Below are positions 5,055-24,929 of a stretch of DNA of 64,000 bases, one piece after another (position 1 is the stretch's first letter; each line of letters begins with the position of its first letter). Position numbers and translations under genes: made by a program. Source of the DNA: Deltaproteobacteria bacterium (GTDB lineage: Bacteria; Desulfobacterota; Binatia; UBA9968); NCBI GenBank assembly GCA_016210115.1, contig JACQUW010000025.1:1-64000 (forward strand), given 5' to 3'. The notes under the pieces are model-generated. The model saw only the letters and a list, made by a program, of their open reading frames with translations, was not told the origin of the DNA and did no database searches.

Positions 5055-5058
5055 AACT

Positions 5059-6081: not shown

Positions 6082-6149
6082 TCGACTCGACGACGGTTAC
6101 CAAAAAAGAAATTGGCAATAGGTTGACCGGTCTGTAATCGATTTAGATC

Positions 6150-7181
6150 ATGCCCAAAAAGACGCGACCAAGTCTTTTGAGATCGGCCTGCAACGGATTA
6201 TTTTTCGTTTTTTGCGCTCTCCTTTTTTACCTCTCGAGCCTCTCGGTCAGCCCTGCGGCTCAAATATCCCGCGTCAAATTGCTCGTAGGTTACAGCTCGC
6301 CATCCGGGAGCCAGGCGGTCTTGTGGGTAGCCAAGGAGTCGGGGGCGTTTAGTCGCCACGGGATAGACGTCGAGCTCATCTTTGTCGGCAGCGGCTCGAA
6401 GATGACCCAGGCGGTCCTTGCCGGTGAGCTGAAGATCGCTCAGCTCGGAGGAGTTGCGCCTATCGCCGCAAGGCTCGGCGGAGCCGATGCAAAGATCATC
6501 GCCGTCAGCTTCAACACCCTCGCAAACTCCCTGATCGTGAACCGTGAGATCCAATCGGTCCATGATCTCAAGGGAAAACGGGTCGGTGTCTCACGTTTCG
6601 GCACCAATACGGATGCCGGTGCCCGCTACGTCATCAAGAAGAATGGGCTTGTCCCCGACCGCGACGTGGCGATTCTTCAGCTTGGAGACATCCCGGCTGT
6701 TTTCGCTGCGCTTCAGACCGGCGCGGTTCAAGGAGGCATCCTATCCTATCCGACAACGGCCAGAGCATTGAAGATGGGTTTTAAAGAGCTTGTAGACATT
6801 TCTGAAATCGGTTTGGAATATCCAGGCACGAATATCGTCACCATGGATCGCTTCCTACGGAGCCAGCCGGATCTCGTCAGGGGATTTCTCATGGCTTTTA
6901 TCGAAGGCATCCACCGCTACAAGAGCGACGCCGCCTTCACCAAGAGAGTTATCGGCCAATACGCGCGGATTACAGACGCCGGGATTCTGGACGACACCTA
7001 TCGCTTGTTCGCTCAGAAACTCCAAAAAATTCCATACCCGACGCCGGGCGGGATCCGCTTCGCACTGGAGACTCTGATCGATAATCCCAAGGCGCGGCAG
7101 GCCCGGCCGGAGGAGTTTTACGATGACACGATATTACGCGCGCTCGAGCGGGAGGGCCTTGTGGAGCAGCTTTACCGGTAG
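6150..7181 (+). CDS. ABC transporter substrate-binding protein, NitT/TauT (NMT1/SsuA) type
   Basis: 343 residues with an N-terminal export signal (LFFVFCALLFYLSSLSVSPA, cut near AAQI). The core follows the family order: LLVGYSSPSGSQAVLWVAKE, SRHGIDVELIFVGSGS, AVLAGELKIAQLGG, LKGKRVGVSRFGTNTD, and the Tyr/Pro segment FAQKLQKIPYPTPGGI near the C-terminus. Closely related in layout to the SBP just upstream, so the two probably arose by duplication. It is followed 51 bases later by a ThDP enzyme whose substrate it may deliver; that link is inference. Confidence 0.87.
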   Translation: MPKKTRPSLLRSACNGLFFVFCALLFYLSSLSVSPAAQISRVKLLVGYSSPSGSQAVLWVAKESGAFSRHGIDVELIFVGSGSKMTQAVLAGELKIAQLGGVAPIAARLGGADAKIIAVSFNTLANSLIVNREIQSVHDLKGKRVGVSRFGTNTDAGARYVIKKNGLVPDRDVAILQLGDIPAVFAALQTGAVQGGILSYPTTARALKMGFKELVDISEIGLEYPGTNIVTMDRFLRSQPDLVRGFLMAFIEGIHRYKSDAAFTKRVIGQYARITDAGILDDTYRLFAQKLQKIPYPTPGGIRFALETLIDNPKARQARPEEFYDDTILRALEREGLVEQLYR

Positions 7182-7232
7182 AGCTGACCGGCAAAGCTGA
7201 AAAAGGTAATACTGCCGGAGGAGTGAAGAGGG

Positions 7233-8996: not shown

Positions 8997-9143
8997 TGTC
9001 TCGCCTGAAAACAAGCTCAGAATAGCGCTCGTTATCTATTGGGATTGGGTTACGAGGCTCAAAAATCAGCTTGGAAGGGAAGGCGCGGATGAAACCGGTT
9101 GACTTGGAGCGCCTGTCGGGTTTAGTGAGAGTCGTTACCCTAG

Positions 9144-9323
9144 TCAGCGGAAGGACTTTCTCACTTCACACGAAGTAACGCCCTGTATCCGTCGCGCGGA
9201 GACGTCCCGGTCACAGAAGAGGTGGATCGCCTGCGGGGCCGGCCCACTTTTTTCACCGGCGTGGAAGAGACGAGTCGCGACTATAAACGGATTTCGGAGA
9301 CTTACCAGGCGCTTCTGCGGTGA
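9144..9323 (+). pseudogene. C-terminal remnant of an Fe3+-type substrate-binding protein
   Basis: Sixty open codons run directly after a TAG (9141) and end at TGA (9321). They encode EGLSHFTRSNALYPSR, a middle block GRPTFFTGVEETSRDYK and ISETYQALLR. These align along their whole length with the last 60 residues of the intact SBP gene immediately downstream (SHFTRNNALFPSR ... SETYESLLRK). Nothing recognisable of the N-terminal three quarters remains between 8997 and 9143. It is best read as what is left of a duplicated SBP gene. Confidence 0.7.
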
Positions 9324-9338
9324 TGGAGGGCTAAGTGG

Positions 9339-10400
9339 ATGAATGCCAAACGTCTCACGCGCTTTCTGGTCATCTTGCTTCTTAGCGCAGCCATTCGGTC
9401 AGCCGAAGGGGCAAGCTTTGAGGAAGCGCTGCGGTCTCTGGACAGTCTGGCGGCGGAATCGCGGCGGGTTCGCCTGGTCACAGAGGCTAGCCGGGAAGGC
9501 CGCGTCCGGTGGTCTACATCCACCAATCTCGATCGGGTCCAGTCTCTTCTCGAAGCCTGGAAAAAGAAATACCCCGACATCCAGCTGGAGTATCATCGGC
9601 TGAGCGGGCGCAAACTCGCGGACCGGGCGATCCACGAGTACCGCGCCGGCCGGTACGAGTTCGACCTGATCGGCAGCAGCGCGGTGACTTTCGTGAGCCT
9701 CAAGGACGCCGGCGTCATTCGACCTTATGTTTCGCCGGAGGCCGCCCGAATCCGTAGCCGGATGAGGGATCCGAACGGCTTCTGGACGAGCGAGTACAGC
9801 AACGTTCTCGCTATCACCTGCAACAGAAACCGGATCAAGGTGGCGCCGGGAAATTGGAAAGACTTCACGGATCCGAAGTGGAAAGGCGATTTCTCAATTG
9901 ACACCGAGCGCTTCCAGTGGTTCCGCGGGCTTCAGAAGCTCAATGGCGAGGAAGGAGCGAAGAGTCTTATAACCGGCTTGGTCGGTAACCGCGCGCTCAT
10001 CCGGCGGGGCGGGACACTACAGGCGCAACTCGTGGCCGCGGGCGAGTACTCCTGCACCCTGGGAGCCTACCTGAATTCGGCTTATCTATTGACGAGACGG
10101 GGCGCGCCGCTCGTCTACGCTGTGCCGGAGCCAGTGCTGCTGTCGCCGACGATCACGACGATGGCGCGGGTGCCCCCGCATCCGTACGCCGCGATACTTC
10201 TATATGACTGGCTGCTTTCGCCGGAGGGGCTATCCCATTTCACCCGGAACAACGCGCTGTTTCCCTCGCGAACGGACGTCCCCATGGTCGAAGAAATCAA
10301 AGCGCTCCAGGCCAGGCCGCTGCATTTTATTGATGTCGAGGACCAGGGGCTGCACTACAAGGAGACCTCGGAAACATACGAATCGCTGCTCCGGAAATGA
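9339..10400 (+). CDS. ABC transporter substrate-binding protein, Fe3+/polyamine (family 1) type
   Basis: 353 residues. A signal peptide (FLVILLLSAAIRSAEG) precedes a core like the SBP at 2906: SREGRVRWSTSTNLD, LEAWKKKYPDIQLEYHRLSG, DPNGFWTSEYSNVLAITCN, and the C-terminal APHPYAAILLYDWLLSPEG-like block. GC content and GC at third positions are visibly higher than in the genes before 9000. It is preceded by a remnant of a close paralog and followed after 20 bases by a cyclodeaminase paralog, repeating the SBP-plus-OCD arrangement seen at 2906-5054. Confidence 0.86.
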   Translation: MNAKRLTRFLVILLLSAAIRSAEGASFEEALRSLDSLAAESRRVRLVTEASREGRVRWSTSTNLDRVQSLLEAWKKKYPDIQLEYHRLSGRKLADRAIHEYRAGRYEFDLIGSSAVTFVSLKDAGVIRPYVSPEAARIRSRMRDPNGFWTSEYSNVLAITCNRNRIKVAPGNWKDFTDPKWKGDFSIDTERFQWFRGLQKLNGEEGAKSLITGLVGNRALIRRGGTLQAQLVAAGEYSCTLGAYLNSAYLLTRRGAPLVYAVPEPVLLSPTITTMARVPPHPYAAILLYDWLLSPEGLSHFTRNNALFPSRTDVPMVEEIKALQARPLHFIDVEDQGLHYKETSETYESLLRK

Positions 10401-10420
10401 CCGGGCGCGGGAGATCATGA

Positions 10421-11494
10421 ATGCCACTGCTGCTCGCAAGCGCCGAAGTAGAAGGGCTATTGACGATGGAGATGACCATCCAGGCGTGCGAGGAGGCGTT
10501 TCGAGGACTCGCGCGCGGCGAGGCGGTGAATCGTCCACGCACGCACACCTTTCTGCCCACGGCTGAGGGCGCATACCTTTTCAAATCCATGGAGGGAGGC
10601 GTTCCCAGTCTCGGTGTCTACGCCATGCGACTGAGCTCAGATCACCTCACCGTGGAGAGCGCGGGCGAAGTCGTCCGGCGCGTCAAACGCCCCACGCTAC
10701 CCGGGAACCGCTACCTCGGTCTGATCCTGCTTTTCGCCATCGGCGACGGCAGCCTGATCGCGATCCTGCCCGACAGCTATATCGCTCGCATGCGGACCGG
10801 GGCCAAGAACGGTGTCGGAGCGAAGTTCCTGGCGCGGGCCAACTCCCGGGTCCTGGGGCTCATCGGCGCGGGTTGGCAGGCGGGCGCGCAAATCCTTGCG
10901 CACCTCGCTGTGCGGCCCATCGAGGAGGTAAGGGTGTACAGCCCGACGCAGGAGAGAAGGGAAAAATTCGCACAGGAGATGACGGAGAAGACGGGCGTTA
11001 CAGTGCGCGCGGTGGAGAGCGGCGCAGAGGCGGTTTCTGGCGCGGACATCGTGGCGGTTGCCACAAATTCCCAGGAGCCTGCTCTCCGCGCTGAGTGGCT
11101 CGAGCCAGGCATGCATGTCTCGCACATTCAGAGCCGTGAGATGGACCCAGCGGTCTTCGAGAGAGCGGACCTTGTCGTCAGGAGGGCGCGCACAACGTCC
11201 AGTATGGACTTCTTCCCTCCAGCGCTTCCCGACTCGCACAAGGCCTTTCTTATAAAGCGGCACTTTTCGGCCGACAGGGAGGGCGAGCACGATCTCCTCG
11301 ATATCCTCCGCGGCGACTTTCCCGGCCGCACGACCGACCGGCAAATCACGGTCTTCGGCGGCAGCGACGAGGACGGCTCAATCCAGGGAGTGTTGCTCGC
11401 TGCGACAGCGGAAGCCGTCTACCGGAGGGCGATCGAAAAGAAGATCGGGCGGGAGATTCCGCTGGAATGGTTTCTCGAAGAGACTTCGCCCTGA
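10421..11494 (+). CDS. Ornithine cyclodeaminase/mu-crystallin family protein (paralog 3)
   Basis: 357 residues. Family landmarks: MPLLLASAEVEGLLTMEMTI at the start, the Rossmann motif GLIGAGWQAGAQILAHLAV, a VYSPTQERREKFAQEM block, and ending IGREIPLEWFLEE. The segment AMRLSSD occupies the place where ornithine cyclodeaminase has its substrate-binding lysine. It probably reduces or oxidises an imino or amino acid using NAD(P)H. It shares an operon with paralog 4, whose start lies 12 bases after this stop. Confidence 0.85.
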   Translation: MPLLLASAEVEGLLTMEMTIQACEEAFRGLARGEAVNRPRTHTFLPTAEGAYLFKSMEGGVPSLGVYAMRLSSDHLTVESAGEVVRRVKRPTLPGNRYLGLILLFAIGDGSLIAILPDSYIARMRTGAKNGVGAKFLARANSRVLGLIGAGWQAGAQILAHLAVRPIEEVRVYSPTQERREKFAQEMTEKTGVTVRAVESGAEAVSGADIVAVATNSQEPALRAEWLEPGMHVSHIQSREMDPAVFERADLVVRRARTTSSMDFFPPALPDSHKAFLIKRHFSADREGEHDLLDILRGDFPGRTTDRQITVFGGSDEDGSIQGVLLAATAEAVYRRAIEKKIGREIPLEWFLEETSP

Positions 11495-11506
11495 AAGGAT
11501 CGCGAG

Positions 11507-12592
11507 ATGACCCTATTTCTCAATAATGATGACGTCAAGGCAGTTCTCACCATGGAGATGACCATCGAGGTCCTGGAGGAGGCATATCAGCAACTGGCCC
11601 GCGGCGAAGCCGCCTGCCCGCCTCCCCTCGATATCGATGTCCCAGGCCACGAGGCCGGTCGCGACTACCGGTGGGGCCAGATGTGTGGCGCCTCCCGGGT
11701 CTCTGGCTACTTCGCCATACGGATGAAGTCCGACGTTCGCTACGAACAGCATTATGAAGGGGTTCGGACGAGCGAATACTACTGCGTGAGACCGGGAAGG
11801 TTCTGCGGTCTCATCTTTCTCACCAGCACCAGGAGTGGAGAACCTCTTGCGTTGATCAACGATGGATACCTCCAGCATTTCCGCAGTGGCGCCGACTCCG
11901 CGATCGGGAGCAGGTACATGGCCCGCGAAGAATCCTCGGTTCTCGGGGTTCTTGGCTCGGGAGGTATGGCGCGCTCCCATGTCGAGGCGCTGCGGCTCGT
12001 TCGTCCGATCCGGAAGGTTCTGGTTTCCAGTCCCACCCGCGCGCATCGGGAAGCGTTCGCGAGCGAGGTCAGGGAGCGCTACGGTCTTGAGGTGATCGTT
12101 TATGGCGAGCCCCGGCCGGTGTACGATTGCGACATCCTGTCGGCCTGCACCGACGCCGCGTTGCCGGTGATCCGGGGCGAGTGGCTGAAAGAAGGGACAC
12201 ACGTGACGTCGGTCGGCGGAAGTCCGGACGACGAGACCGTTCGCCGGATCACAAGGTCGCTAAGGCTCGGGACAGCCACCGCGCCCATTGGCCTCCCTCA
12301 CCACCGCGTGCCGGACGAGCGGCTCATCTACTCGGCGTTTCCGGAAGGGCAGGGAAGGCGGAAGAGGGCCCACGGCATCATCGCCGAGGACCGGGCCGTT
12401 TATTTCGAGGATCTACTTGCCGGCCGTAAGAAGGGCCGGCTGTCGGCCGCCGACATCACCTATTCCGAGAGGGGGAATGTCCAGGGGGCGCAGTTTTTCT
12501 CGGTCGGCAGTAGAGTCTACGAGTTGGCGCGGCAAAGGGGCCTCGGTCGAGAGCTTCCCACTGAGTGGTTTCTCCAGGACATCAGGAACTGA
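11507..12592 (+). CDS. Ornithine cyclodeaminase/mu-crystallin family protein (paralog 4)
   Basis: 361 residues opening with MTLFLNNDDVKAVLTMEMTI and a nucleotide-binding motif GVLGSGGMARSHVEALRLV in which the usual Trp-Gln of the other three paralogs (GWQA) is Gly-Met (GGMA). The following segment is KVLVSSPTRAHREAF, and the end is LGRELPTEWFLQDI. FAIRMKSD places a lysine close to the expected substrate site, unlike paralogs 1-3. The changed motifs suggest a different substrate from its neighbours. Adjacent to paralog 3 and coupled to it. Confidence 0.85.
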   Translation: MTLFLNNDDVKAVLTMEMTIEVLEEAYQQLARGEAACPPPLDIDVPGHEAGRDYRWGQMCGASRVSGYFAIRMKSDVRYEQHYEGVRTSEYYCVRPGRFCGLIFLTSTRSGEPLALINDGYLQHFRSGADSAIGSRYMAREESSVLGVLGSGGMARSHVEALRLVRPIRKVLVSSPTRAHREAFASEVRERYGLEVIVYGEPRPVYDCDILSACTDAALPVIRGEWLKEGTHVTSVGGSPDDETVRRITRSLRLGTATAPIGLPHHRVPDERLIYSAFPEGQGRRKRAHGIIAEDRAVYFEDLLAGRKKGRLSAADITYSERGNVQGAQFFSVGSRVYELARQRGLGRELPTEWFLQDIRN

Positions 12593-12629
12593 AGGATGCA
12601 TCGTCAGCGCAGGAGGAAGAGAGGCCGCG

Positions 12630-12761
12630 ATGGGAGTGATCCTTCCAATCATTTTGGCGGAGAGGGGGTTAGCTGGAAGCCAGAGATCATCGAGGTTGCT
12701 GCTCGCCTATATCCAAGGAGTTAAGAAAGCGATGGTCCCACTTTATCAGAAACGTCTATGA
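12630..12761 (+). pseudogene. Possible decayed NMT1-type substrate-binding protein fragment
   Basis: A short frame with AGGAGG before its ATG encodes RLLLAYIQGVKKAMV. This resembles the conserved helix of NMT1-type SBPs (FLMAFIEGIHRY and FLRGWIEGIKTA in the paralogs of this window). The preceding bases read KPEII in a shifted frame, as expected just before that helix. It looks like a piece of a frameshifted SBP gene; the fragment is too short to be sure. Confidence 0.4.
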
Positions 12762-12928
12762 AACAGACCCGCTAGCTTGCCCCAAGTGCCTTTTGCTCTG
12801 CATCAATTCCGGTCCAACGCGTATAATTTCAACGTAACGGTGTCCCGGTCGGAAGAGCTGCACCTGGTTCACAAAAGCATTCCTCTGCAGAAGGCCTCGG
12901 GCAACTGAAATCTTGGGGTGCGACGCGG

Positions 12929-13921
12929 ATGTTGAAAGCGCCAATCAAAATCTCCATAGCCCTTAGTTGGATTTGTCTCGCTGGAGTTCCCGTCGCTCTC
13001 GCTCAGACCTTGAAGATCCCTTACGCGGCGCTGTCTCCCACCTACGCGCCGCTTTGGATCGCAGATCAGGCCGGTTTATTTAAGAAGCACGGTTTAGATG
13101 TTCAGCTCATCTACATCTCGGCGGGGTCCGTTATCATCCCGGCCATTCTCTCGGGACAGGTAGAGCTGGCCAACATGAGCTCGGCGCCGGCACTTACGGC
13201 TTGGGCCAGAGGCGCGGAACTTGTCGCCGTCGGAGTCACATCGAATCGTCTGCTTCACGTCATCATGACCCGCGCGGCGATAAAAAAACCGGAAGAACTG
13301 AAGGGAAAAAGGGTCGGGAGCGATCGTTATGGCTCGCTGTCGGACCTGGTCCTAAGAGAAGCCTTACGGTTTCACAATCTCGCGCCCGACCGGGACGTGG
13401 CGATCATTCAGACCGGCGGGTTACCCGAGCGGCTCGGCGCGCTCAAGGTTGGCGCCGTCGATGCCGCCATTGTAACCGGCGATACTGCTTTTCAGGCGGA
13501 AAAGCTGGGGTTTCACACAATCATCGATCTCAGTCAGCTGCCGATCCGATACCCGAGCAGTACGATCGTCGTTAGCAAAACGTTCCTTCAAAGCAGGAGA
13601 GACGCTGTCAAAAGGTTCTTGCGGGGGTGGATCGAAGGGATCAAGACGGCCAAGACAGATAAGGATTTTACAATTAGAGTTCTGCAGAAATTTCTCAAGA
13701 CGGCGGATCAAGCGATTCTCGATAGAACCTTCGAAGTGTACAAAAACGTCCATGAAAGAATTCCGTCTCCGGACGTGACGGTGATGGGTGTTGCTCTTAA
13801 GCAGCTTTTCGCAGCGGTCCCTCAAGCCGGGCAGTTGAAGGCCGAGGATTTCATCGATCGAAGTCTCATCTCCGAGCTGGAGAGTGAAGGATTCATCGGC
13901 AGAGTATATGACGGCCGGTGA
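12929..13921 (+). CDS. ABC transporter substrate-binding protein, NitT/TauT (NMT1/SsuA) type
   Basis: 330 residues with a cleavable signal (SIALSWICLAGVPVALAQ). Core: IPYAALSPTYAPLWIADQAG, LFKKHGLDVQLIYISAGS, AILSGQVELANMSSAP, LKGKRVGSDRYGSLSD, and RFLRGWIEGIKTAKTDKDF. A TATAAT-like hexamer at 12822-12827 lies about 100 bases upstream but has no good -35. This is the last gene of the cluster. Its stop lies only 75 bases before a decayed integrase fragment, so the cluster's right edge coincides with the scar of an integration event. Confidence 0.87.
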   Translation: MLKAPIKISIALSWICLAGVPVALAQTLKIPYAALSPTYAPLWIADQAGLFKKHGLDVQLIYISAGSVIIPAILSGQVELANMSSAPALTAWARGAELVAVGVTSNRLLHVIMTRAAIKKPEELKGKRVGSDRYGSLSDLVLREALRFHNLAPDRDVAIIQTGGLPERLGALKVGAVDAAIVTGDTAFQAEKLGFHTIIDLSQLPIRYPSSTIVVSKTFLQSRRDAVKRFLRGWIEGIKTAKTDKDFTIRVLQKFLKTADQAILDRTFEVYKNVHERIPSPDVTVMGVALKQLFAAVPQAGQLKAEDFIDRSLISELESEGFIGRVYDGR

Positions 13922-13996: not shown

Positions 13997-14279
13997 TATC
14001 CCGCATGACTTTCGCCGAACTGCTATAGGAACCTTGAGCGCGCGGGAGTTTCGCGCAGTGACGCTATGGCCGCAGTTGGCCACCGAACCGACAGCGTTTA
14101 CAGACGGTATGCAGTCAGCGACGAAAAGTCACTCAAAGAGGCGGGCGCGAAGCTTGCCGCGTTACATGAGAAAGATTTTTCGGCGACTGACAAAGTTTTG
14201 ACAAAGTCGGAAGCAGTTTAGCAGTTGGAGCAGAGAGTTGAGAATCCGTAAGGCGTGGAAAATGCTGGTCAAAGAAAGG
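13997..14279 (+). pseudogene. Decayed 3' end of a tyrosine integrase, sister of the intact one at 23508
   Basis: From TATCCCGCATGACTTTCGCC onward this stretch is a near copy of 24455-24724. That is the part of the intact integrase holding the HxxR motif (IPHDFRRTA), the GHRTDSVYRRY block with the nucleophilic Tyr, and the tail. More than 100 bases around 14045-14150 appear identical by eye. One base is lost after the first Arg-rich block (GCTATAGG against GCAATCAGG), so the frame is broken. An 11-13 base insertion near 14195 leads to a TAG at 14219. The N-terminal 85% of the gene is absent. It ends exactly where the att repeat begins. Confidence 0.85.
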
Positions 14280-14321
14280 TGGCCAGGGACGGAATCGAAC
14301 CGCCGACACGAGGATTTTCAG
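14280..14321. repeat. Outer att site: 42-base copy of the tRNA-Phe 3' end
   Basis: Identical to 24725-24766, the 3' portion of the tRNA-Phe gene from the discriminator base through the T arm and variable loop into the anticodon stem. Beyond it the sequence departs at once from the tRNA (AAGTGCCGCC instead of TCCTCTGCTC), so this is a truncated copy and not a gene. It marks the distal end of the element whose other end is the complete tRNA. Confidence 0.88.
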
Positions 14322-14803
14322 AAGTGCCGCCTACGAAAGACCATTGGTCACTATCGGTCAGCATGTGAACGCCTTCCGTTATTTACCCTCACTTACGGAT
14401 TCTCTCTCTCACCGTCTGTTCCGATTCGATCAACCAGTTCTGACAAAGTCATTGACAAAGTCGGAGGACACCTTTTAGGTGGGTGCGCAGAGAATCCACA
14501 ATCCTTTGCGCGCTAAAAAACACCGCTCTGGCAAGGGTTTTTAGGCTACTTGGGCAAGACTTTGTCAGAAAGGTCATGGAGAACGCCAAACGAATGTTGA
14601 CCGCGTGTGAGCATTTCAGGAGATTTCTTGATACACTCAGGCCTACATTCTGCAATCCCTCTTCTCCCCTATTCCCTGCCCTTCTGGCTCATTCCGGTCT
14701 CCGAGTAATCACAACAGGGATTCGGTGTTGATCGCAGGCTAACGGTTCAAAATGAATACGAGCCGGCGAGGCGAAGTGGCGCTGCCGAAACGGCCCGACT
14801 GGT
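14322..14803. other. Left end of the element, non-coding, with TGACAAAGTC repeats
   Basis: No gene recognised. TTCTGACAAAGTC at 14438-14450 is followed at once by TTGACAAAGTCGGA (14452-14465). The inverse GACTTTGTCAGAA occurs at 14558-14570, giving a 13-base inverted repeat. A closely similar doublet (CTGACAAAGT plus TTGACAAAGTCGG) lies at 14187-14210 in the tail of the integrase remnant, outside the att site. Such motifs near an att site could be recombinase arm or excisionase sites; this is an inference from position. Confidence 0.5.
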
Positions 14804-15610
14804 CTAACGGGTTGCCGTGGAGTCGTACTCTTCTTTGGCAGTGGACTCCGCCGCCGTGTTGGCTGCGCCGATCCGCCCGTCCCACAACCGCATAGAGCGA
14901 ATTAGGCGCTTTGTCATCCGGTCTCGTTGGGCCGTCTGAAGAATTCTTTTAGCTGCCTGGGGATTCTGCTCAGCAATTATCCGCAAGGCATCGACCTTCA
15001 GAGCCAGCAATACGTCATTTGCGCCCTGCCGAAGACGTTTTAGGCTTTTGGGACCAACATCAATCTGGTCACCCCCGAAAGAGAGCGTATTGCCTGCCAG
15101 GTTGCCCAAATCATTCTTGCGCTTGAGGCGATTCGACCGCGCCCTCCCGGGCAGCCGCTCGTCGAAGTGCTCATAGTGGTCTCGCATTTTTTTGTACTCC
15201 TGGAAAACTGTGACGTAGGGCCGTAGCGCCTGCCGTAAAGCGGGAAACCCTGTGATATGACGCACCAAGGTCAAATCTCGCCCCACGATATTCCAGCAAA
15301 TGAGATAGAAATGGATGTCTCTGAACAATGAGGACAAGGTTCCACCACGGGATTTTCGAACCGGACCACGCCATGGTGCCGCAGCTCCCGGGTTTGCTGA
15401 TACGTGACGCATTTGCTCCAGCTCACGTCTTAGGTGCCGCTGGGCTCGTTGAATACGCGCCTGCTGATTCGTAGCTCCTCGGAGATAACTCTCTACGTTG
15501 TACAGGGCCAGAAGTACTGCAGAGAGCTTGTCACCCGAGACCACGTGAAGAAGTAGTGTTCGGGCTTCAATAGCTTTGAGAAGCCGCGCTGATATTCGGT
15601 GCTTAGCCAC
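14804..15610 (-). CDS. Uncharacterised protein with a HEPN-like RxxxxH motif
   Basis: 268 residues starting at GTG (15610). Mostly helical by composition, with basic stretches and no signal peptide. Residues 143-148 read RDHYEH within KMRDHYEHFDERLPG, an R-x4-H pattern of the kind that forms the RNase centre of HEPN domains. The surrounding segment, predicted helical by eye, fits that fold. No family name could be assigned. It lies downstream of the broken FRG gene and the double-motif HEPN-like gene on the same strand, so the three could be one transcription unit. Its role is unknown; RNase or toxin activity is a hypothesis. Confidence 0.6.
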   Translation of the reverse strand: MAKHRISARLLKAIEARTLLLHVVSGDKLSAVLLALYNVESYLRGATNQQARIQRAQRHLRRELEQMRHVSANPGAAAPWRGPVRKSRGGTLSSLFRDIHFYLICWNIVGRDLTLVRHITGFPALRQALRPYVTVFQEYKKMRDHYEHFDERLPGRARSNRLKRKNDLGNLAGNTLSFGGDQIDVGPKSLKRLRQGANDVLLALKVDALRIIAEQNPQAAKRILQTAQRDRMTKRLIRSMRLWDGRIGAANTAAESTAKEEYDSTATR

Positions 15611-15736
15611 AGTTCGTTGGGTCGTAGGTTTTCATCAATCCCCCTTAGAAACTGAAGGGTAGTTCACTCAAGCATAGAGGCTAACGTTATGGGTAGCAGT
15701 TTGGCTGCTCCACCCACTCTTACAAGAATCGATTTT

Positions 15737-16563
15737 CTAGGGATTGATGTTGTACAAGCGTTTCAAATCATCCGCAACGCTCTGCGCCTCTGGAAAAAGA
15801 GTGGTCTTGTTAATCCCAAGGGCCCGCAGAGACCGAAGCATCGACTGGCAGCGGTTTGGATCAATTGGGATCTTTGCCAACCGCCGACGTGCCCGGGTCA
15901 CCGACTTTGAGAAGTTCATCAATCGGCGTCTCTTCAGCACCGTGCACTGTGAAAACGCCGCGCCGGGGAGCCGTCGTCGTTTTTGAGCACACCGGTCGCT
16001 TCAAATTCAATCGGCTTACGACCGCGGCCACACTGTGTCGGCAGCCAATGCTTGGTATCTTGATCTCCCGGTGCCACGATGTAGCCTTCCTTCCACTGGC
16101 AGGTGAAAGCATTCAGGGCGGCCGGGTCGAGAACCCAGACGCAAGCTGTAATATCCGATTTCGCTGAGTCGAGGGCGAAATAGAGAGCAGCTAAAGGACT
16201 CTCAGTCCAATCCAGCAAACGGGTCGGCAAGCCGTAATGTTGCATGACATAGTACCAGTCCCAGTCGTCGAGCGGTTCGCGCAGCACGTACATCGGCGCA
16301 GCGTTCTGAAAGCCGACAAATAGGCTCAGCTCATCGCATGATGTACGCCAGTAGGCTCCAGGGAGGAGCTTGTGGCTCGCGTTGTTCACACCGCGGAACC
16401 AGAGTTCGGGCTCACTGCCGCCCGCGTCTGGCCACTGCTCGAAATAGCTAAGGACGCGCTCAATGAATTCCTGCGCTGACCTGACTGAGTCGCTCACGCT
16501 TTCGAACCTCCGAGTTTGTCTGGCGCCGCCGTCACCAACCGTCGGCCAATACCATGACCTCAC
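15737..16563 (-). pseudogene. FRG-domain protein, broken by two frameshifts
   Basis: The first 200 residues carry the hallmarks of the FRG domain: ELWFRGVNN (naming motif), then HYGLPTRLLDWTESPLAALYFA. Near 15960 the frame shifts and the next frame supplies RRGVFTVHGAEETPIDELL. Near 15905 it shifts again, and the third frame gives the typical C-terminus LRALGINKTTLFPEAQSVADDLKRL. All three pieces follow the family order, so one gene of about 270 residues was present. FRG proteins are found in phage-defence and mobile-element contexts; the biochemical activity is not established here. Two indels within 60 bases may be real decay or sequence errors. Confidence 0.78.
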
Positions 16564-16620
16564 CTCATGATCACCAGCGCACCGCCAGCCGCGATACAGC
16601 CCTCTGCTGCACGAAGTGGG

Positions 16621-17367
16621 TTAACCCGCCTGCGGTGTACCCATTGACCGAAGTATCGACACCAGACTGTCAAGTTCCGTGAGCAGCGGGCGCAACTCTG
16701 CGTCCGTCGGAACGGCGATGCCGTGTACGAATTCATTCCTTGCCCGGGCCGCTTTCTCCAAACGTGACCGGAACGCGCCCGTGAGGACACCCTTCGAGAC
16801 AAGGCCATCCACAACACCCAGGGCTGGACCCTGCTCGTGTTTCGGTTTCGGAAGGTGCGCGCGTCCCAATTGCCGCACAAGTTGTTCAAATTCTCCCCAT
16901 TTCAAGACCACCTGGCCCAGAAGCGAATGCGGCGGTGGCACACCAGGACCAGCGACTGAGATATCGAGGAGGTTCTTGAGTAGAATCCGCGCCACTTGGA
17001 GATAACCGTCGACGTGAACAGGATCCACAGTCACCCCGTTACCATCGTGGTACAGCGCGTTACGAAGCCGGTGATAACCTTCAAGGTCTCCTAGGCTCAC
17101 GCCGTCGAGTCGGTCGGCAGCATACTTCTCGAGAAGATCCAACAGGTCGGGGAAGCTCTTGCTGCACTCATCGAACTCCTTCCGCGGAGGGCCTTCAAAC
17201 CCACGGACTCTTCTCGGCAGTTGTAGATATGTCTTGATGCCCAGCTCGACAGCATTGTCAATGCTGATCATTGCGATCCGGCAATCAAAACCTGTGCCTT
17301 GGGCGAGGTGCTCTACCGCGTGCTCAAGAAGTTCTTTCGGACCAGACGTCCACGGCCGAAGATTCAT
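16621..17367 (-). CDS. HEPN-like protein with two RxxxxH motifs
   Basis: 248 residues. Two separate R-x4-H motifs are visible: R102-NALY-H107 in HRLRNALYHDGNG and R210-NEFV-H215 in ARARNEFVHG. Each follows a helical stretch, and the N-terminus (CRIAMISIDNAVELGIKTYL) resembles the first helix of HEPN proteins. HEPN domains are commonly metal-independent RNases in toxin-antitoxin, Abi and CRISPR systems. Two copies in one chain could form an intramolecular pair. It lies 57 bases upstream of the FRG gene on the same strand, so the two may have been one toxin/defence unit. The assignment rests on motifs seen by eye. Confidence 0.65.
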   Translation of the reverse strand: MNLRPWTSGPKELLEHAVEHLAQGTGFDCRIAMISIDNAVELGIKTYLQLPRRVRGFEGPPRKEFDECSKSFPDLLDLLEKYAADRLDGVSLGDLEGYHRLRNALYHDGNGVTVDPVHVDGYLQVARILLKNLLDISVAGPGVPPPHSLLGQVVLKWGEFEQLVRQLGRAHLPKPKHEQGPALGVVDGLVSKGVLTGAFRSRLEKAARARNEFVHGIAVPTDAELRPLLTELDSLVSILRSMGTPQAG

Positions 17368-17393
17368 GGCTTTCGCGTTAGCGTATAGCCCCT

Positions 17394-17421
17394 TTTATCG
17401 CTAAAGCCTGGCAGTAATCAA
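17394..17421 (-). promoter_or_regulatory. Candidate promoter for the HEPN/FRG unit
   Basis: On the minus strand TTGATT (17421-17416), 16-base spacer, GATAAA (17399-17394), about 27 bases before the HEPN-like ATG. Four of six positions match in each box. Modest evidence. Confidence 0.35.
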
Positions 17422-18231
17422 GCCGCGGGGAAAAGGCCGTGTGACAGGAAGGATAATATGGATTGGAACCGCGTAACCGCACTTGACTTTTGGTTCAGGA
17501 TGCCTCTGGACTACGGTCACCTAAATTTCAGGCCAGTAGCATGGCACATCTATTTCAGGTACTTGCAACGGGCCGAGACCGGCTTGTGGCCACCAAAAGA
17601 GTAAAATCGGCGTGTCTTAACCCTCGCGAAACCGGGAGTGTTACGGGAGGTGAAAAGCTTCAAAGCTTCGAGGGCAACACGCAGGCCGACCAGGGGCTCC
17701 AGAGAATTCACCCGGGGCCGCTTGATCGGAATTAACCCGAAGAGATGAGAGCGGCAAGAGGGCGAGTGGGGCTTAGGTCTCCTCCCCCTTCTTTTGTCGG
17801 TTCCGATCGCGGAGTTTCGGCCTGAACCGGATCTGGGCTCCCCGCCCGAGATTGAGTCCGCGCTCTCGCGGTCCCTATCCCAATCGCTGCAAGCTCCCGG
17901 ATTTTGTTGAAATTTCAAAGCGTTTTGGTAATCTAGACTAGGACGGTGGACTGGAAACCCCCAACTGCGATTATTATTGCCGCTGGCCTGGCCTTTGAAC
18001 TCGTTCACGGCGAGGCTGTCAAGCCCCACGTTGAGCCCGACGTCAAGGCGCCCAACAGCGGCGTCCTACGCTACAGCATTAGCATTGTCACTTCTGCTGA
18101 TCCATTTGCCGCTTCACTCCCGCTATACAGAGAAATTGATCTAAAGTAATCGGCGTCGTTGTTTCCGGCCGGTAGACGCGGTCGCGTTGTTCTGCCGCTG
18201 CCATCGAGTCTCCATCAGATGAGAGGTCCCA
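17401..18231. other. Gap of about 830 bases without a recognised gene
   Basis: Open frames exist on both strands but have odd composition (Arg/Ser/Pro-rich), no ribosome binding site and no known pattern. The segment separates the minus-strand HEPN/FRG unit from a plus-strand gene. It contains AT-rich stretches such as TTGTTGAAATTTCAAAGCG near 17905 that may be regulatory. Nothing more can be supported. Confidence 0.4.
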
Positions 18232-18819
18232 ATGATCACTGACGATAAAGCGAGAGAGAAAATCGCGTGCGAGGCGGCACATCTTGCAAACGAGTTAGTT
18301 CGGCAGCTGACGGTGCCATCCCTGATTCTGGAAGACTCAGAAACTGGGCAGAAAAAAAAGAACTTTTTGAGAGCAGGCGCGATCCGAAACTTTTGCATAT
18401 TAGGAATAATCGTAAACCTGTACCGGGTGATCGAGCTTCGCGACAATTTCTTGCTTGATATCCTTTTCAGTGAAGACGAGCTTCGAGACATGGGATTTCC
18501 GTCAATTCATGAGTTTCTCGGTGGCTTAGAGCAGATGAAGTTTTTGGAGATCTTGCGGCATCAATTTGCCGGGCATGCAACAGCTAAATCCGCAACTGGC
18601 AAGAAACCGGGAAAGCTAATCTCTGCAAAGCTGTTGGGCATAGCTCTGAGAGAAACAGGTATCGACAAACTACCCGAGTTCGCGACAAGCCTTCGAGAAA
18701 AACTGGCCCCACAACTCGAAAAATTTATCGATCAGATGCGTCGGAAATTTCCAGCTATCGATAAGTTCGTTATGGAGGACTATCCGTTGGAAGTTGAAGA
18801 GGGACGCTTACGGCGATGA
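18232..18819 (+). CDS. Uncharacterised helical protein with an Rx5H HEPN-like motif
   Basis: 195 residues, helical and charged, no signal or membrane segment. R109-HQFAG-H115 in EILRHQFAGHATAKS has the R-x(4-6)-H spacing of HEPN ribonucleases. Upstream, NLYRVIELRDNFLLDILFS could form an earlier helix of the fold. The gene stands alone on its strand, convergent with the retropepsin gene 63 bases away. It is the third HEPN-like candidate in the element; activity and partner are unknown. Confidence 0.55.
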   Translation: MITDDKAREKIACEAAHLANELVRQLTVPSLILEDSETGQKKKNFLRAGAIRNFCILGIIVNLYRVIELRDNFLLDILFSEDELRDMGFPSIHEFLGGLEQMKFLEILRHQFAGHATAKSATGKKPGKLISAKLLGIALRETGIDKLPEFATSLREKLAPQLEKFIDQMRRKFPAIDKFVMEDYPLEVEEGRLRR

Positions 18820-18881
18820 TCCGGCGGCGGCTTGGGAGACAAAACAGGAACCCCCCGGAGTCGCTACCCTTCGGCCCCGGC

Positions 18882-19340
18882 TTATGCAACATCGATTTGC
18901 AGCGTGACGATTTTCTGTTTGCTGTCGAGGCTAACTGACTCACATAGGTTAAAGAACCCGTGATGCCCGAGCAGCCCCGTACTAAGCTGATCCAATCCGT
19001 CCATAAAGCCAGCGTAACAATCAAAGCTGTACCACTTGCCCTGAATCGAGACCCAAACCTTGACCAAGTGATAGTAGGCAGTGTCTGACCCGGTGACCCC
19101 AGCAGTTGCCTCAGCGAGCCCGCTTTGTACATCGATGCCTATATGTCTCCCTATACTGGCGGGAAAAACGCAACTATCCGCCCCAGAATCAATAATGGAA
19201 AAGAAATTTATCGGGAAAATCTTGCCCCGGTACTCTATATTCGTTACCAGGGCTGGTCGATCAACAAAACTTCTAGTGGGGAAAGCAGGGCTTGGCGGAA
19301 CAAAAAAGCGGATGTACGGAACCGAAACAGTCTGGATCAC
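18882..19340 (-). CDS. Retropepsin-like aspartic protease
   Basis: 152 residues starting at GTG (19340). The catalytic motif is FSIIDSGADSCVFP (Asp51-Ser-Gly-Ala, where Asp-Thr/Ser-Gly is the pepsin signature). The usual C-terminal flap/hydrophobic signature of single-domain retropepsins is present as GLLGHHGFFN. Such proteins are presumed to work as dimers with one Asp from each chain. No signal peptide is evident, so it is probably cytoplasmic. Its start overlaps the stop of the small DUF5678-like gene by three bases (GTGA), so the two are translationally coupled. Confidence 0.8.
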   Translation of the reverse strand: MIQTVSVPYIRFFVPPSPAFPTRSFVDRPALVTNIEYRGKIFPINFFSIIDSGADSCVFPASIGRHIGIDVQSGLAEATAGVTGSDTAYYHLVKVWVSIQGKWYSFDCYAGFMDGLDQLSTGLLGHHGFFNLCESVSLDSKQKIVTLQIDVA

Positions 19341-19537
19341 AGAAGTTGTGCGGTATGCTCATCAGGGACCCTGAGAAGAATGGGGTGGTTTTTGTGCTCC
19401 TCCGCCCTTCGGAGCGCTTCCTCCATTGTGTCCGCTGATACGAGAACCCGAGACTTATCCTCGGAGATCACCACCCACTTGCCTTTGTAAGGCCTTAACA
19501 ATACGGAAAGGTCAATCACATTCTCATTCTCTGCCAT
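19337..19537 (-). CDS. Small DUF5678-like protein paired with the retropepsin
   Basis: 66 residues from ATG at 19537, chosen over an upstream start because AAAGGAGG lies directly before it. The core YKGKWVVISEDKSRVLVSAD, then EEALRRAEEHKNHPILLRVP, matches the DUF5678 pattern: a compact alpha/beta protein often encoded beside retropepsin-like proteases. The role is unknown; regulator, inhibitor or substrate of the protease are all possible. It has a canonical promoter of its own 79 bases upstream. Confidence 0.75.
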   Translation of the reverse strand: MAENENVIDLSVLLRPYKGKWVVISEDKSRVLVSADTMEEALRRAEEHKNHPILLRVPDEHTAQLL

Positions 19538-19615
19538 TTTCGCCTCCTTTTGACTACCTTTACGCCAACGCAAAAGGCATGCCAGGAAAGCTGCCAGGCA
19601 ACAAGAAGCAAACCT

Positions 19616-19644
19616 CTTATAGTAGGCCCAATTGTTGATGTCAA
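19616..19644 (-). promoter_or_regulatory. Sigma70 promoter of the DUF5678-retropepsin pair
   Basis: Minus strand: TTGACA (19644-19639), exactly 17 bases, TATAAG (19621-19616), 79 bases before the ATG at 19537. A perfect -35 and five of six -10 positions at ideal spacing make this one of the best promoters in the window. Confidence 0.65.
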
Positions 19645-19781
19645 GTCAGGGATAGCCCTGAGGGCCATTCCGGGCATGTGGCGTCGAAATAACCTCGGAC
19701 GCTAAGGGAACTTTTGCAGGAAGTGGCGAACCTCGATTCAACTTTGCCGAGTGTAACTGAACGATCCCCTCCATGAATGAC

Positions 19782-22226
19782 TCATCCTTCGTCTGGCTCT
19801 AAGACCTCGATAAATTCGGCGATCACGCGGACCTGGCCTTCGGATTCTTCCGTAAGGACAATAGGCGAAAAGGCCGGGTTTAGCGGTTCGAGCACGATCC
19901 GGATATGGTGCCAACTTCCTTCTGATGAGGGGGCTTTCTCGCTCCGGTAACGCTTTACTGTGTATGTTCCACCCGTCTCAGGGTCATGGATATCATGATG
20001 CTCAACAACGACGATCCTATCTTGGCGGGTGCCGAGGACGGGATAGCGAAATAGACAATACGCTCCGTCAGAGATTAAGGGTTCCATCGAGTGGCCTACC
20101 ACTTGGGCAACGAACATGCCTTTACGCAGTTGATGTGAAGATTTGATTTCCACCCAATCCTCGAATTCGACAGGCTGTTCTTCTCCGAAACTTCCGGCAG
20201 CGGCTTTTAGAGAAAGCAGCGGAACACAGGTTTGATATCGCTCTTCCCGCCGAGGACGAACCCGACGGAAAGGAAGGAGAATCCCTGGGATCACCGGAAC
20301 GCGGGTTGTCGTCTCTAGAGGTGGGTGGGGCACACGGAGAGCTGCCGACGGCAGATCGAGTCGGGTCTCGTAGGGCTGACCGGTGCAAATGGACTCCTGC
20401 ATGGCGTCATAGATTTCCAGGATGACTCGCCGTGACCGGAACTCGCCGTATTTCTCTTCCTGGTGGCGTTGCTGCGTTGGGAAAGTCGAGAGGATGTACT
20501 CCACTTCGGACCGCGTCAGTTCGAAGACATCGTGGGCCACGGTGGCGTCGATTTCGGCTCGGATTTGCAAACGAGCCTCCTCTTCTAACTCGCCCGGAAT
20601 TTGAGTGGGGGAGGTTGTTGCAGGAACCCAACCGTCGGCCGCGAGTTGATTCCAAAAGGGGGTCATTTCAGGACCAGTGCACGAGAGGCGAAGACAGCGT
20701 GAAACCAGGGCGCTTACCCGAGGGTCATGCCGTTCGAGTCCCGGAAATGGGAGGCTATCGAGGATACTGAAGGTCATGTGAAGCGACACCTTCATTCTAG
20801 CGACAAAGTCAATGGCGTAGGAATTGGCGACTGAGATCCAGAACGGATAGTGCCAATCCTCGTTGTCTGCCTCAAAAAGAATTGTTGGAACGGAGTGTCC
20901 ACAAAGAACACCGGCTGGGATGAGTGAGGCCACCAGAGTACGTTCATTCGTCGGACTCGCGACGTCGCAGAAGCCAATGCGGTAATTCGCCATCCGCTCA
21001 ACGCACTTCTCGGGAACCCGTTCACGTGGGATGTACCACTGTGGCTGAATGGACTTCTCCGGACGACTGAACGGTAAGTCTTCCCAGCGGGCGGCCCGGC
21101 CCCGACCGTTGCGATAGCCTTTGGCACAATAGTCGAACTGATCCACCATGCGTCCTTCATATAACGGGATGCCGGTAGAATCCTCATCGAACAGCCCGCG
21201 GTCGGTTCCCATGTCGATTTCACGCATGTAGACTCTGCGTGGCCGACCCGCGGTTTTGTCGCCAAACGCTCGCCAACGGTACATCTTGGCCGCTATGTCG
21301 ATATCCAACTGGCTACCGAACTCCATGATCGCCAGAGCGTCGGGTGAGAACTCCTTGATCAATCGAACGGGAATGTTGAGGGAGCGTCCCGCTTTAACGT
21401 CCGCAAGTTGGTCCTGTGAACGAATGTTGAAAGCGGCGCGGACCGACTCAGTCTGCCCGCCGACGTGAGCAGCATAAAGGCAGAACTTCATTGCGGTGTG
21501 GACGCCGGGGAACCACGCTTCATTTGTATTCTCGAATCCAAGAAGGCAGTTGAGTCGGCAGGTCTCGTAAAGTGCTCGGCGGATCGCCATGCAATTGGCT
21601 CCGTTGTATAACCCCTCTGGCACGATCTGTGAGGTCCAGCCGTTGCGGCGCGTGAGCGCCAGCGCGCTTTCGACGAACATGCGATAAACGTTGAAGTCTC
21701 CCTTTCCGAGATTGCCGGGTGCGAACATCTGGTAGCGACCGCTCTGCTTGATGAAGTGGACGAGTGCGTAGAGATCCCGGCAGTTGGCCACCCATCTCTG
21801 GGCAATCGTCGGATCTTGGAGAAGTGCGTCAATGATCCGCTGCTGTCCTTCTCGGTCTTGAAACCGGACTTGGGGGTCATAGCTTGAAAAGAACTCCTTT
21901 GCGTCCGGGCTCAAGGTGTCCCACGGAGGATTCCCAAGCACGAGATCGAAACCGCCTCTGGCGAACACCTCCGGGAAAGCGAGATGCCAATGGAAAAACT
22001 GGTATTGGCGGGCGAGGCGCTCTACTTCAGTACGTTGAGCCGGCATTAACGCCTTGGGGTCCGCAGAAAGGCAACGGATGGTGTCAGTCGTTATCGGGTC
22101 GAACGGTTCGCTCCCCTGCTTGCTCCAGACGAAGGCCGCGCACCACGCATCCGCGACTTGCTGTGCATGTTGATATTCGGGCGATACAACAAGCCTGCGG
22201 AACCGATCCGCCTTGCGCTGTACCAA
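19782..22226 (-). CDS. N-terminally truncated adenine DNA methyltransferase fused to an S24/LexA-like peptidase domain
   Basis: 814 residues from a weak TTG start; an in-frame stop lies about 25 bases upstream. FPEVFARGGFDLVLGNPPWD near residue 100 is motif IV (NPPW) of Eco57I/DrmMI-like N6-adenine methyltransferases, and the target-recognition region follows. The SAM-binding motif I and everything before it, usually several hundred residues in this family, is missing. The last 120 residues form an S24 domain with GHSMEPLISDG (nucleophile Ser near 713) and YTVKRY (Lys near 757), the catalytic pair of LexA/UmuD/CI peptidases. A C-terminal S24 domain on a large methyltransferase is unusual. Without motif I the methylase is probably inactive. 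Confidence 0.75.
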   Translation of the reverse strand: MVQRKADRFRRLVVSPEYQHAQQVADAWCAAFVWSKQGSEPFDPITTDTIRCLSADPKALMPAQRTEVERLARQYQFFHWHLAFPEVFARGGFDLVLGNPPWDTLSPDAKEFFSSYDPQVRFQDREGQQRIIDALLQDPTIAQRWVANCRDLYALVHFIKQSGRYQMFAPGNLGKGDFNVYRMFVESALALTRRNGWTSQIVPEGLYNGANCMAIRRALYETCRLNCLLGFENTNEAWFPGVHTAMKFCLYAAHVGGQTESVRAAFNIRSQDQLADVKAGRSLNIPVRLIKEFSPDALAIMEFGSQLDIDIAAKMYRWRAFGDKTAGRPRRVYMREIDMGTDRGLFDEDSTGIPLYEGRMVDQFDYCAKGYRNGRGRAARWEDLPFSRPEKSIQPQWYIPRERVPEKCVERMANYRIGFCDVASPTNERTLVASLIPAGVLCGHSVPTILFEADNEDWHYPFWISVANSYAIDFVARMKVSLHMTFSILDSLPFPGLERHDPRVSALVSRCLRLSCTGPEMTPFWNQLAADGWVPATTSPTQIPGELEEEARLQIRAEIDATVAHDVFELTRSEVEYILSTFPTQQRHQEEKYGEFRSRRVILEIYDAMQESICTGQPYETRLDLPSAALRVPHPPLETTTRVPVIPGILLPFRRVRPRREERYQTCVPLLSLKAAAGSFGEEQPVEFEDWVEIKSSHQLRKGMFVAQVVGHSMEPLISDGAYCLFRYPVLGTRQDRIVVVEHHDIHDPETGGTYTVKRYRSEKAPSSEGSWHHIRIVLEPLNPAFSPIVLTEESEGQVRVIAEFIEVLEPDEG

Positions 22227-22646
22227 GACGGCGCGGCCGAAACCAGATGGCGCTTAAGCGCTACCGCATCTGGGGCTCGCAGAAACACTGGCCGGCTGAT
22301 TGCCCTTTGGCGCCGCAACCATACCCAATCAGGCGGGTGTGTATACGGTCCGGTGGTTCCGTGTACACACATTGCGGTAAGAAAATGCTCAGGGGCTATT
22401 TCAGGCTGGAGCGGGTGAAGTTTGGTGGGCGGCCGGTTGTTAGGCTCAACGCTCAGGCGACGGAGGTGAAGCTGTCACTGATGGTTTGTTTTGATATGGG
22501 CGTGTGCAGCGCTCGGTTTAATTAAAAGCGTGACCCTGCTAAGAAGCGTTGCCCAACGTGCGCCCGTCTCCACCAAAGGGAACGATAGGGGAAAACATCA
22601 GATAGCCCGCAAAGGTATCGTAAAAAACGGTTAACGATTTTTGGCG
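22227..22646. other. Truncation boundary of the methyltransferase, non-coding
   Basis: About 420 bases between the truncated methyltransferase and the zinc-ribbon gene. No methyltransferase-like peptide was recognised in any frame here, so the missing N-terminal part has been deleted, not merely frameshifted. It contains one clear inverted repeat (22337-22370) and no convincing gene. Confidence 0.5.
22337..22370. repeat. Inverted repeat with 12-base arms
   Basis: GTGTGTATACGG (22337-22348) pairs with CCGTGTACACAC (22359-22370) with one mismatch, across a 10-base loop. It could be an operator or an RNA hairpin; there is no T-run, so it is not a typical terminator. Confidence 0.5.
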
Positions 22647-22865
22647 ATGGGTTTTGAAGAGTGTCATAGCCCTCTCTGTAGGGCTTCATTAGGGCCGAGG
22701 ATTCGCAAGAAACGGTTGTTCTGCTCGGATCAGTGCAAGCTCGACACCTGGGTCCTGAGAAAAGCCGCGGAGCTGCTTTCCCATTTCCCCGCAGAGAGAA
22801 AGCTCCAGGTTCTTGCGGCTCTGGTTCGTCTGCCCGTTGATGATCGAAAAAACGGTTCAACGTGA
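22647..22865 (+). CDS. Small zinc-ribbon-like protein
   Basis: 72 residues from ATG at 22647. Two cysteine pairs are spaced as in small zinc-binding modules: CHSPLC near the N-terminus and RLFCSDQCKLD about 20 residues later, followed by a helical tail (LSHFPAERKLQVLAALV). Similar small proteins are frequent near excisionase/integrase modules of mobile elements, where their function is unknown. It is the first gene of the plus-strand int module. Confidence 0.6.
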   Translation: MGFEECHSPLCRASLGPRIRKKRLFCSDQCKLDTWVLRKAAELLSHFPAERKLQVLAALVRLPVDDRKNGST

Positions 22866-22970
22866 GTGAAAGATGAGTGAGGTGCGCCCCAAGGCTCGAG
22901 ACCATGCTCGAGAGCTCATCAGGCGTATCCCGGGACGGGGCGGCCACAGAAAGAATACGGTTGCCGACCG

Positions 22971-23267
22971 ATGGTTCTGACTAGGACTGCTATGGGCGAA
23001 GTAACCAGGATCGTTGTCCTGAGTGAACAGGAGCTGGAGCAGCTTATCGAACGCGCGGTCAGTCGCGCTTTGAATGGGAACGCCGATACTCATAGGCAGG
23101 AGGACCGGCTCTTAACTCCCACCCAAGCTGCCGAGTTGCTCACTGTCACGCCGCGTTGGCTTTACCGACATGCGAAGCGCCTGCCGTTTACCCGCCGGCT
23201 CTCGCGTAAAGCCTTGCGCTTCTCTGAGGCTGGACTTCTCCGTTATCGCGACGCCAAAAGAAATTAA
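22971..23267 (+). CDS. Helix-turn-helix (excisionase/AlpA-like) DNA-binding protein
   Basis: 98 residues (an alternative start at 22992 would give 91). The C-terminal half, LLTPTQAAELLTVTPRWLYR followed by a basic wing and RFSEAGLLRYRDA, is the MerR-type helix-turn-helix of excisionase-family proteins. The N-terminal part is acidic and helical and may dimerise. Position directly before a ribbon-helix-helix-like gene and the integrase suggests it controls excision or int expression. Confidence 0.75.
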   Translation: MVLTRTAMGEVTRIVVLSEQELEQLIERAVSRALNGNADTHRQEDRLLTPTQAAELLTVTPRWLYRHAKRLPFTRRLSRKALRFSEAGLLRYRDAKRN

Positions 23268-23328
23268 AACCAAGACCTTTTCAACTCCTCTGTTGCGTAG
23301 CTCCTCAGAATGCTGTATTGCTAGCAGC

Positions 23329-23507
23329 ATGAGAGCTACTAAACGAAAGGAGGGTAAGGCCGTGGAAATTAAGCCGTTGCAGCTCAAAATTCGGAAGGAT
23401 CTTTGGTTGGCGTGGAAGATTCAAGCTGCCAGAGAAGAAAGGACGATGAGCGAGATCGCCGAGCAACTGATAAGCGAGTATCTCAAGAAGAAAGGAGGAA
23501 AGAGCCA

Positions 23508-23511
<4 letters not shown>
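23329..23511 (+). CDS. Small ribbon-helix-helix-like protein coupled to int
   Basis: 60 residues: MRATKRKEGKAVEIKPLQLK, then a helix (DLWLAWKIQAAREERTMSEI) and EQLISEYLKKKGGK. The strand-helix-helix layout and size fit the ribbon-helix-helix class of DNA-binding proteins (Arc/ParG-like, plasmid antitoxin-like). Its TGA overlaps the integrase ATG (ATGA at 23508-23511), so the two are co-translated; it probably acts as a directionality factor or repressor for int. Confidence 0.65.

Positions 23512-24925
<1,414 letters not shown>

Positions 24926-24929
<4 letters not shown>

Follow-up and report, generated by a model that had tools for sequence, protein, structure and literature searches.

A LexA-type S24 peptidase module recurs at the C-terminus of bacterial restriction and helicase effectors and may act as a damage-triggered off-switch

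LexA and the lambda CI repressor are stimulated to cleave themselves by RecA filaments, after which the N-terminal part is removed or disabled with Clp proteins; LexA-like proteins have degrons adjoining the cut, and once SOS has brought about cleavage their N-terminal portion is broken down (PMC5742171, PMC10584840). How cells keep restriction enzymes off their own DNA when it is damaged or freshly replicated is an old question. In E. coli, alleviation of restriction takes the form of ClpXP proteolysis of HsdR only, which shields the host from its enzyme; the signal on HsdR that serves as the degron has never been found (PMC4231737). Alleviation of EcoKI also works without SOS (PMC11109961). 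Two defence systems are relevant to the locus described here, class 1 DISARM, to whose methyltransferase DrmMI the enzyme at this locus is related, and Druantia, whose DruE resembles some of the proteins discussed below; as defined, neither system has an S24 tail. In the open-access literature we found no account of a restriction or helicase effector fused to S24, although such an absence is no proof.

The stretch of DNA analysed here (the window, 64,000 nucleotides) encodes a fusion of this kind, in which a methyltransferase related to DrmMI and to type IIG enzymes ends in an S24 module. The gene and its parts are as follows.

19782..22226, minus strand: adenine methyltransferase lacking its N-terminal half, with the S24 module at its C-terminus (814 aa, starting at TTG)
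20307..22226, minus strand: methyltransferase part, type IIG / DrmMI-like, residues 1-640 (PADLOC and tblastn limits)
21921..21932, minus strand: methyltransferase motif IV NPPW, residues 99-102
19785..20306, minus strand: S24 (LexA-type) module with leading linker, residues 641-814 (Pfam, AlphaFold/Foldseek)
20193..20204, minus strand: AAAG, predicted scissile bond Ala677-Gly678 (AAG invariant in the seed alignment)
20085..20096, minus strand: GHSM, catalytic Ser713 (sequence motif)
19950..19961, minus strand: TVKR, catalytic Lys758 (sequence motif)

The open frame runs 9 codons further upstream, to 22253. A preliminary description of this gene had recognized a large adenine methyltransferase joined to an S24 domain that keeps both catalytic residues, and profile searches confirmed each part. 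The protein matches the Eco57I methylase family (Pfam PF07669, 5e-13) and the PADLOC model REase_MTase_IIG (3.7e-52), and more weakly DrmMI (5.6e-10). Peptidase_S24 (PF00717) matches residues 674-804 at 3.3e-7 with 30.4 bits, above the curated cut-off of 23.3, and Ser713 and Lys758 are both present, 45 residues apart. Absent from the earlier account was the Ala677-Gly678 bond, with Gly678 35 residues before the serine. The N-terminal half of the enzyme, including SAM motif I, had been reported as lost, and it is: tblastn matches of full-length relatives to the window begin at residue 668 of 1464 (L035) or residue 714 of 1584 (L049), and the alignment stops abruptly at window position 22223. 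Therefore, the N-terminal ~670 residues, motif I among them, are missing. The window copy is a truncated and probably non-functional relic.

The gene lies on an island of about 10.4 kb integrated in tRNA-Phe and flanked by exact 43-bp repeats of the tRNA 3' end, with the following features.

24724..24797, minus strand: tRNA-Phe (GAA), the integration site (ARAGORN)
24724..24766: att repeat, 43 bp, at the tRNA-Phe 3' end (exact match)
14279..14321: second copy of the att repeat, at the opposite island end (exact 43-bp match)
23403..24929, plus strand: tyrosine integrase of the island (Pfam PF00589, 6.4e-10)
22971..23267, plus strand: HTH_17 (excisionase-like) protein of the island (Pfam PF12728, 1.8e-7)
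22641..22865, plus strand: small Cys-containing ORF, just past the end of the truncated methyltransferase

Among the island ORFs, Pfam and PADLOC identified no helicase, DUF1998 or PLD gene beside the window copy, and no drmA, drmB, drmC or drmD. Because helicase, DUF1998 and PLD genes are absent alongside it, the window copy is considered a relic rather than part of a complete defence system, and its membership in DISARM was rejected since the partner genes are missing. The island (14279-24766) also encodes FRG-domain (PDC-S15 candidate defence), DUF5678 and aspartyl-protease-like ORFs. Elsewhere in the window, positions 1700-13921 hold, as judged by eye, tandem ornithine-cyclodeaminase-like genes and genes for NMT1-like or iron-type substrate-binding proteins.

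The preliminary description had left the function to be sought in full-length relatives, and these do exist. Methyltransferase relatives were gathered from 73 loci found by scanning the genome collection and 3 further loci (L080, L081 and L115). S24 is present in only three of about 80 homologous methyltransferase ORFs (L049, L080 and L115); the remaining ~77 lack it and mostly stop soon after the methyltransferase part, so S24 is an optional addition to these enzymes. Full-length frames carrying both parts encode 1584 aa in L049, from an Eisenbacteria MAG, and 1673 aa in L115, from another genome of the window's class, and a second methyltransferase-S24 fusion is found in the window's own genome on contig C374 (L080). 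The SAM motif DPACGSG was found in two of the four S24-bearing methyltransferases. DISARM-like neighbours, which had been named among those to look for, were present at L035, where a full-length relative of 1464 aa without S24 is the DrmMI/IIG methyltransferase of a DISARM/Druantia-like operon that also comprises a DruE-like helicase and a DpdE/DrmD-like SNF2 helicase. Next to the second fusion on C374, positions 9237-13765 of L080 include a decayed S24 fragment with an ArdC-like N-terminus, after which comes a 1246-aa protein that resembles a reverse transcriptase and ends in a nitrilase part (UG1/DRT1-like; by eye).

The fusion might in principle be an artefact of assembly or annotation, or a meaningless read-through. 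Truncation of the window copy and frameshifts in several MAG copies might be expected in that case, but about 70 single-frame fusions with near-invariant catalytic residues occur across many phyla, and fusions are also seen in genomes assembled in 1 or 4 contigs (G028, G033). The copies on C374 and in L049 and L115 likewise speak against a chimeric join confined to the window. We regard this explanation as already refuted, and chimeric assembly was rejected on the strength of the many independent fusion copies.

We also examined how widely the module occurs. A first search with the module alone against 145 related genomes located it as the C-terminal part of large ORFs of several unrelated kinds. 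A profile (A1) was built from 15 module sequences and run on further genomes at E ≤ 1e-15. It matched 12 of 148 genomes in the window's class and 10 of 395 sampled genomes in its phylum, 4 of 349 in Pseudomonadota (the phylum of a Chromatiales genome), 31 of 237 in Myxococcota (that of a Polyangiaceae genome), 22 of 247 in Acidobacteriota (that of a Vicinamibacterales genome), 8 of 217 in Actinomycetota (that of Sphaerisporangium), 12 of 216 in Planctomycetota (that of Limnoglobus) and 1 of 8 in the phylum of the Eisenbacteria MAG. Matches thus span at least seven phyla, and 94 S24-bearing ORFs were extracted from survey loci outside Actinomycetota and Planctomycetota. These counts are biased towards fusions since the profile was made from fused modules, and some contigs are short and some module copies frameshifted.

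Hosts were sorted by clustering of their non-S24 part, and representatives were scanned with Pfam and PADLOC. Counted without the Actinomycetota and Planctomycetota matches, the full host set comprises HsdR subunits of type I enzymes (28), Schlafen-group-3 (DUF2075) helicases (13), DruE-like DEAD/MZB helicases (11), type III Res (8), type IIG/DISARM-like methyltransferases (4), SSL2-like nuclease-helicases (3), type ISP proteins (2) and an EcoEI-type HsdR with an internal module (L112; a second, frameshifted one is L113), along with a single HATPase_c_3 protein, an unassigned protein (L251) and a short fragment (L233). Near-complete modules on host proteins number 71, joined to a large host and nearly always C-terminally; in that set HsdR accounts for 27 and the Schlafen-group-3 helicases for 12, the rest being as above. 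The fusion to a methyltransferase noted previously is therefore real but not specific to methyltransferases, as the module sits mainly on HsdR, DruE-like, SLFN-type and Res proteins. Apart from a few cases (L267, L112 and L251), it reaches the host's C-terminus or stops only a few residues short of it, and the Pfam S24 cut-off was passed in most hosts scanned, though not in L233, L248 or L251. Walker A and DEAD-box motifs were found in most helicase hosts. Full-length HsdR-S24 proteins occur, for example, in Eisenbacteria (L156) and Binatia (L105 and L108). In L156, the match to the REase_I profile spans positions 5-1024 of 1029 and is followed by S24; together with the ~77 of ~80 methyltransferase homologues that lack S24, this shows the module to be an add-on to complete enzymes.

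The genetic setting of the fusions separates effectors from their protective partners. HSDR_N and SWI2/SNF2 domains are present in the HsdR-S24 hosts, and HsdM and/or HsdS is encoded close by (HsdM or HsdS within 7 kb at 19 of 28 loci, both at 11 of 28), and Mod adjoins Res-S24 at five of eight loci. None of these neighbours carries the module (0 of 15 HsdM, 0 of 19 HsdS and 0 of 5 Mod). Placement is thus restricted to the effectors: HsdR, Res and DruE-like proteins bear S24, and HsdM, HsdS and Mod never do. Eight of the 28 HsdR-S24 loci (e.g. L226, L258 and L263) have a neighbour belonging to one cluster, of which the member scanned gave a match to Peptidase_M78 (ImmA/IrrE-like); this is another kind of protease tied to DNA-damage control. 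Seven of the 13 Schlafen-group-3 helicase-S24 genes (e.g. L146, L222 and L275) lie near a small MazG-like gene.

The features needed for self-cleavage are highly conserved. Among 84 near-complete modules, the catalytic Ser is present in all and the Lys in 82; the two ORFs without Lys also lack the scissile Gly and are low-scoring, short HTH-like or degraded sequences. P1 is Ala in 81, with Cys as the sole substitute (two modules) and one gap, and P1' Gly and P2 Ala are each found in 81 of 84; L251 aligns with an insertion at the cleavage site and is ambiguous. LexA, CI and UmuD are cleaved at bonds of these two kinds, Ala-Gly and Cys-Gly, and Cys also occupies P1 in UmuD and some phage repressors. 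The module therefore has in common with LexA, lambda CI and UmuD the fold, the Ser-Lys dyad and an Ala/Cys-Gly bond about 35 residues before the Ser, and it has a LexA-like VPL..AAG motif. However, it is joined to restriction or helicase enzymes and not to the DNA-binding domain of a repressor, and its subfamily has two inserts, DPETGG ahead of the Lys and SEK..W behind it, that are absent from the phage repressors aligned with it. The nearest non-fused S24 relatives found are XRE/HTH-S24 repressors of Myxococcota and phages (L238, L241 and L244), which differ in having an N-terminal HTH and in being transcription regulators.

An AlphaFold model of the S24 part made with 17 sequences was fair (pLDDT 78.8, pTM 0.74; a 3-sequence run with pLDDT 36.5 was set aside), the loop with AAAG being the low-confidence segment. 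Foldseek gave a cleavable lambda CI fragment and LexA as the best matches to this model, and the matches included structures of CI, LexA and UmuD in complex with RecA. The module sequence alone had no phmmer match in the PDB; the module profile did have matches there. S24 domains of LexA, CI and UmuD dimerise, and some phage repressors keep the S24 fold without regulated cleavage, so the tail could be a dimerisation domain or a DNA- or RecA-sensing domain whose peptidase is incidental or serves constitutive processing after synthesis. However, nearly all fused modules keep the full cleavage machinery, including a scissile Gly that a structural role would not need, and we consider this reading unlikely.

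The module has also moved between hosts. A tree of 71 modules, quickly made and with many weak branches, requires at least 23 host changes, compared with a minimum of 9 for 10 host types and a mean of 39.6 after shuffling; the modules therefore group by host yet have jumped repeatedly. Some mixed-host pairs are well supported (HsdR of L246 with the HATPase of L248, SH-aLRT 100; Res of L239 with an SLFN protein, SH-aLRT 99), and the closest relative sits on a different host family for 25 of 71 modules. The S24 part is thus a mobile module in its own right, found on many unrelated effectors.

What the module does to its host can be approached through its better-studied relatives. The most likely reading, in which our confidence is about even, is that damage-triggered self-cleavage inactivates the effector. 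In the intact enzyme the S24 tail would be inert. Once RecA filaments form, for example after the enzyme cuts its own cell's unmodified DNA, S24 would cut its own AA-G bond and give the effector a new ...AA C-terminus (predicted as ...LKAAA, ...KVAA or ...KIAA) like the ClpX-recognized end of LexA. A ClpXP-type protease would destroy the effector, the protective methyltransferase subunits would stay, and the outcome would be damage-coupled, genetically encoded restriction alleviation. RecA-dependence, cleavage, degron and inactivation would here all be carried over from LexA, CI and UmuD. Points in its favour are the near-invariant cleavage site and dyad, the CI/LexA/UmuD-like fold, the placement on effectors only, the addition to otherwise complete enzymes and the repeated moves between hosts. 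The logic would be that of ClpXP alleviation of EcoKI, with the difference that the module would supply a built-in, self-cleaving signal. That EcoKI alleviation does not need SOS counts against the proposed mechanism. Ordinary S24 repressors, too, often have Ala ahead of the bond that is cut; therefore, the ...AA ends do not by themselves identify a selected degron and are suggestive at most, and the degron argument assumes that ClpX specificity holds in these phyla. In L112 and L113 the module sits inside the HsdR nuclease region (in L112 it precedes the part aligning with residues 68 onward of structure 3h1t), and cleavage there would split the nuclease, a further point in favour of inactivation. 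The preliminary description had proposed damage- or phage-triggered cleavage; phage-triggered action is no better supported than damage-triggered inactivation.

Cleavage of UmuD can activate, a point against inactivation. By a similar route, the S24 tail could hold a helicase-nuclease inactive or dimerised until RecA filaments arising from the processing of phage DNA cause it to be shed, as in the conversion of UmuD to UmuD'. The same conserved dyad and bond would serve, and the DruE-like and SLFN-type hosts (24 host ORFs) are plausibly late-acting effectors; DruE of Druantia III acts on ssDNA-containing intermediates (PMC13192584). However, HsdR, Res, IIG and ISP proteins make up more than half of the hosts and must act on incoming DNA immediately, before SOS, while cleavage in L112 and L113 would split the nuclease region and the new C-terminal end resembles the LexA degradation signal. 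On balance we think activation less likely than inactivation, but it is a serious rival. Returning to inactivation, we would place somewhat short of even confidence in its broadest form, that one transferable, RecA-sensing, self-cleaving degron is a general safety device of bacterial immunity, acquired separately by no fewer than seven unrelated classes of DNA-attacking effector, and shuts immunity down via SOS, or in some hosts releases it. The tail probably acts as a built-in off-switch that guards a cell whose own DNA has been broken, judging by analogy with LexA. If so, on HsdR, Res, IIG, ISP, DruE-like and Schlafen-type effectors it would be a one-protein answer, in other bacteria, to the question that alleviation addresses in E. 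coli, and it would tie SOS to immunity post-translationally, without transcription. The S24 tail is also a handle for discovering new defence effectors.

Finally, we searched phage and plasmid sequences for the module. Single-protein scans found no relative in 50,697 phage records, at that sensitivity, or in viral contigs; a profile scan of the viral contigs recovered one true fusion along with ordinary repressors. The fusion is an HsdR-S24 protein of 1200 aa (L278, 4863-8465) on an IMG/VR contig classed viral. These scans bear on the idea that the tail is an anti-anti-restriction sensor, in which phage proteins (for example RecA mimics, anti-LexA factors or proteases) are lured by S24 or set it off. 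The spread of the module over many defence systems and phyla would suit such a role, but no phage partner was found and the module is absent from the phage records at the sensitivity of the scan, an absence tempered by the IMG/VR contig; we judge this idea very unlikely. The plasmid collection contained one module copy, in Halomonas. It belongs to an unannotated SLFN-type helicase with an S24 module in a named isolate (Halomonas sp. PA16-9 plasmid NZ_CP040452.1, L101, 6052-8438), and the gene is apparently interrupted by a stop or frameshift. A standalone S24 module was also seen (L041, 6455-8014), whose N-terminus resembles, by eye, the start of a SNF2-type defence helicase and which is followed by a gene for what looks, again by eye, like a trypsin-like serine protease.
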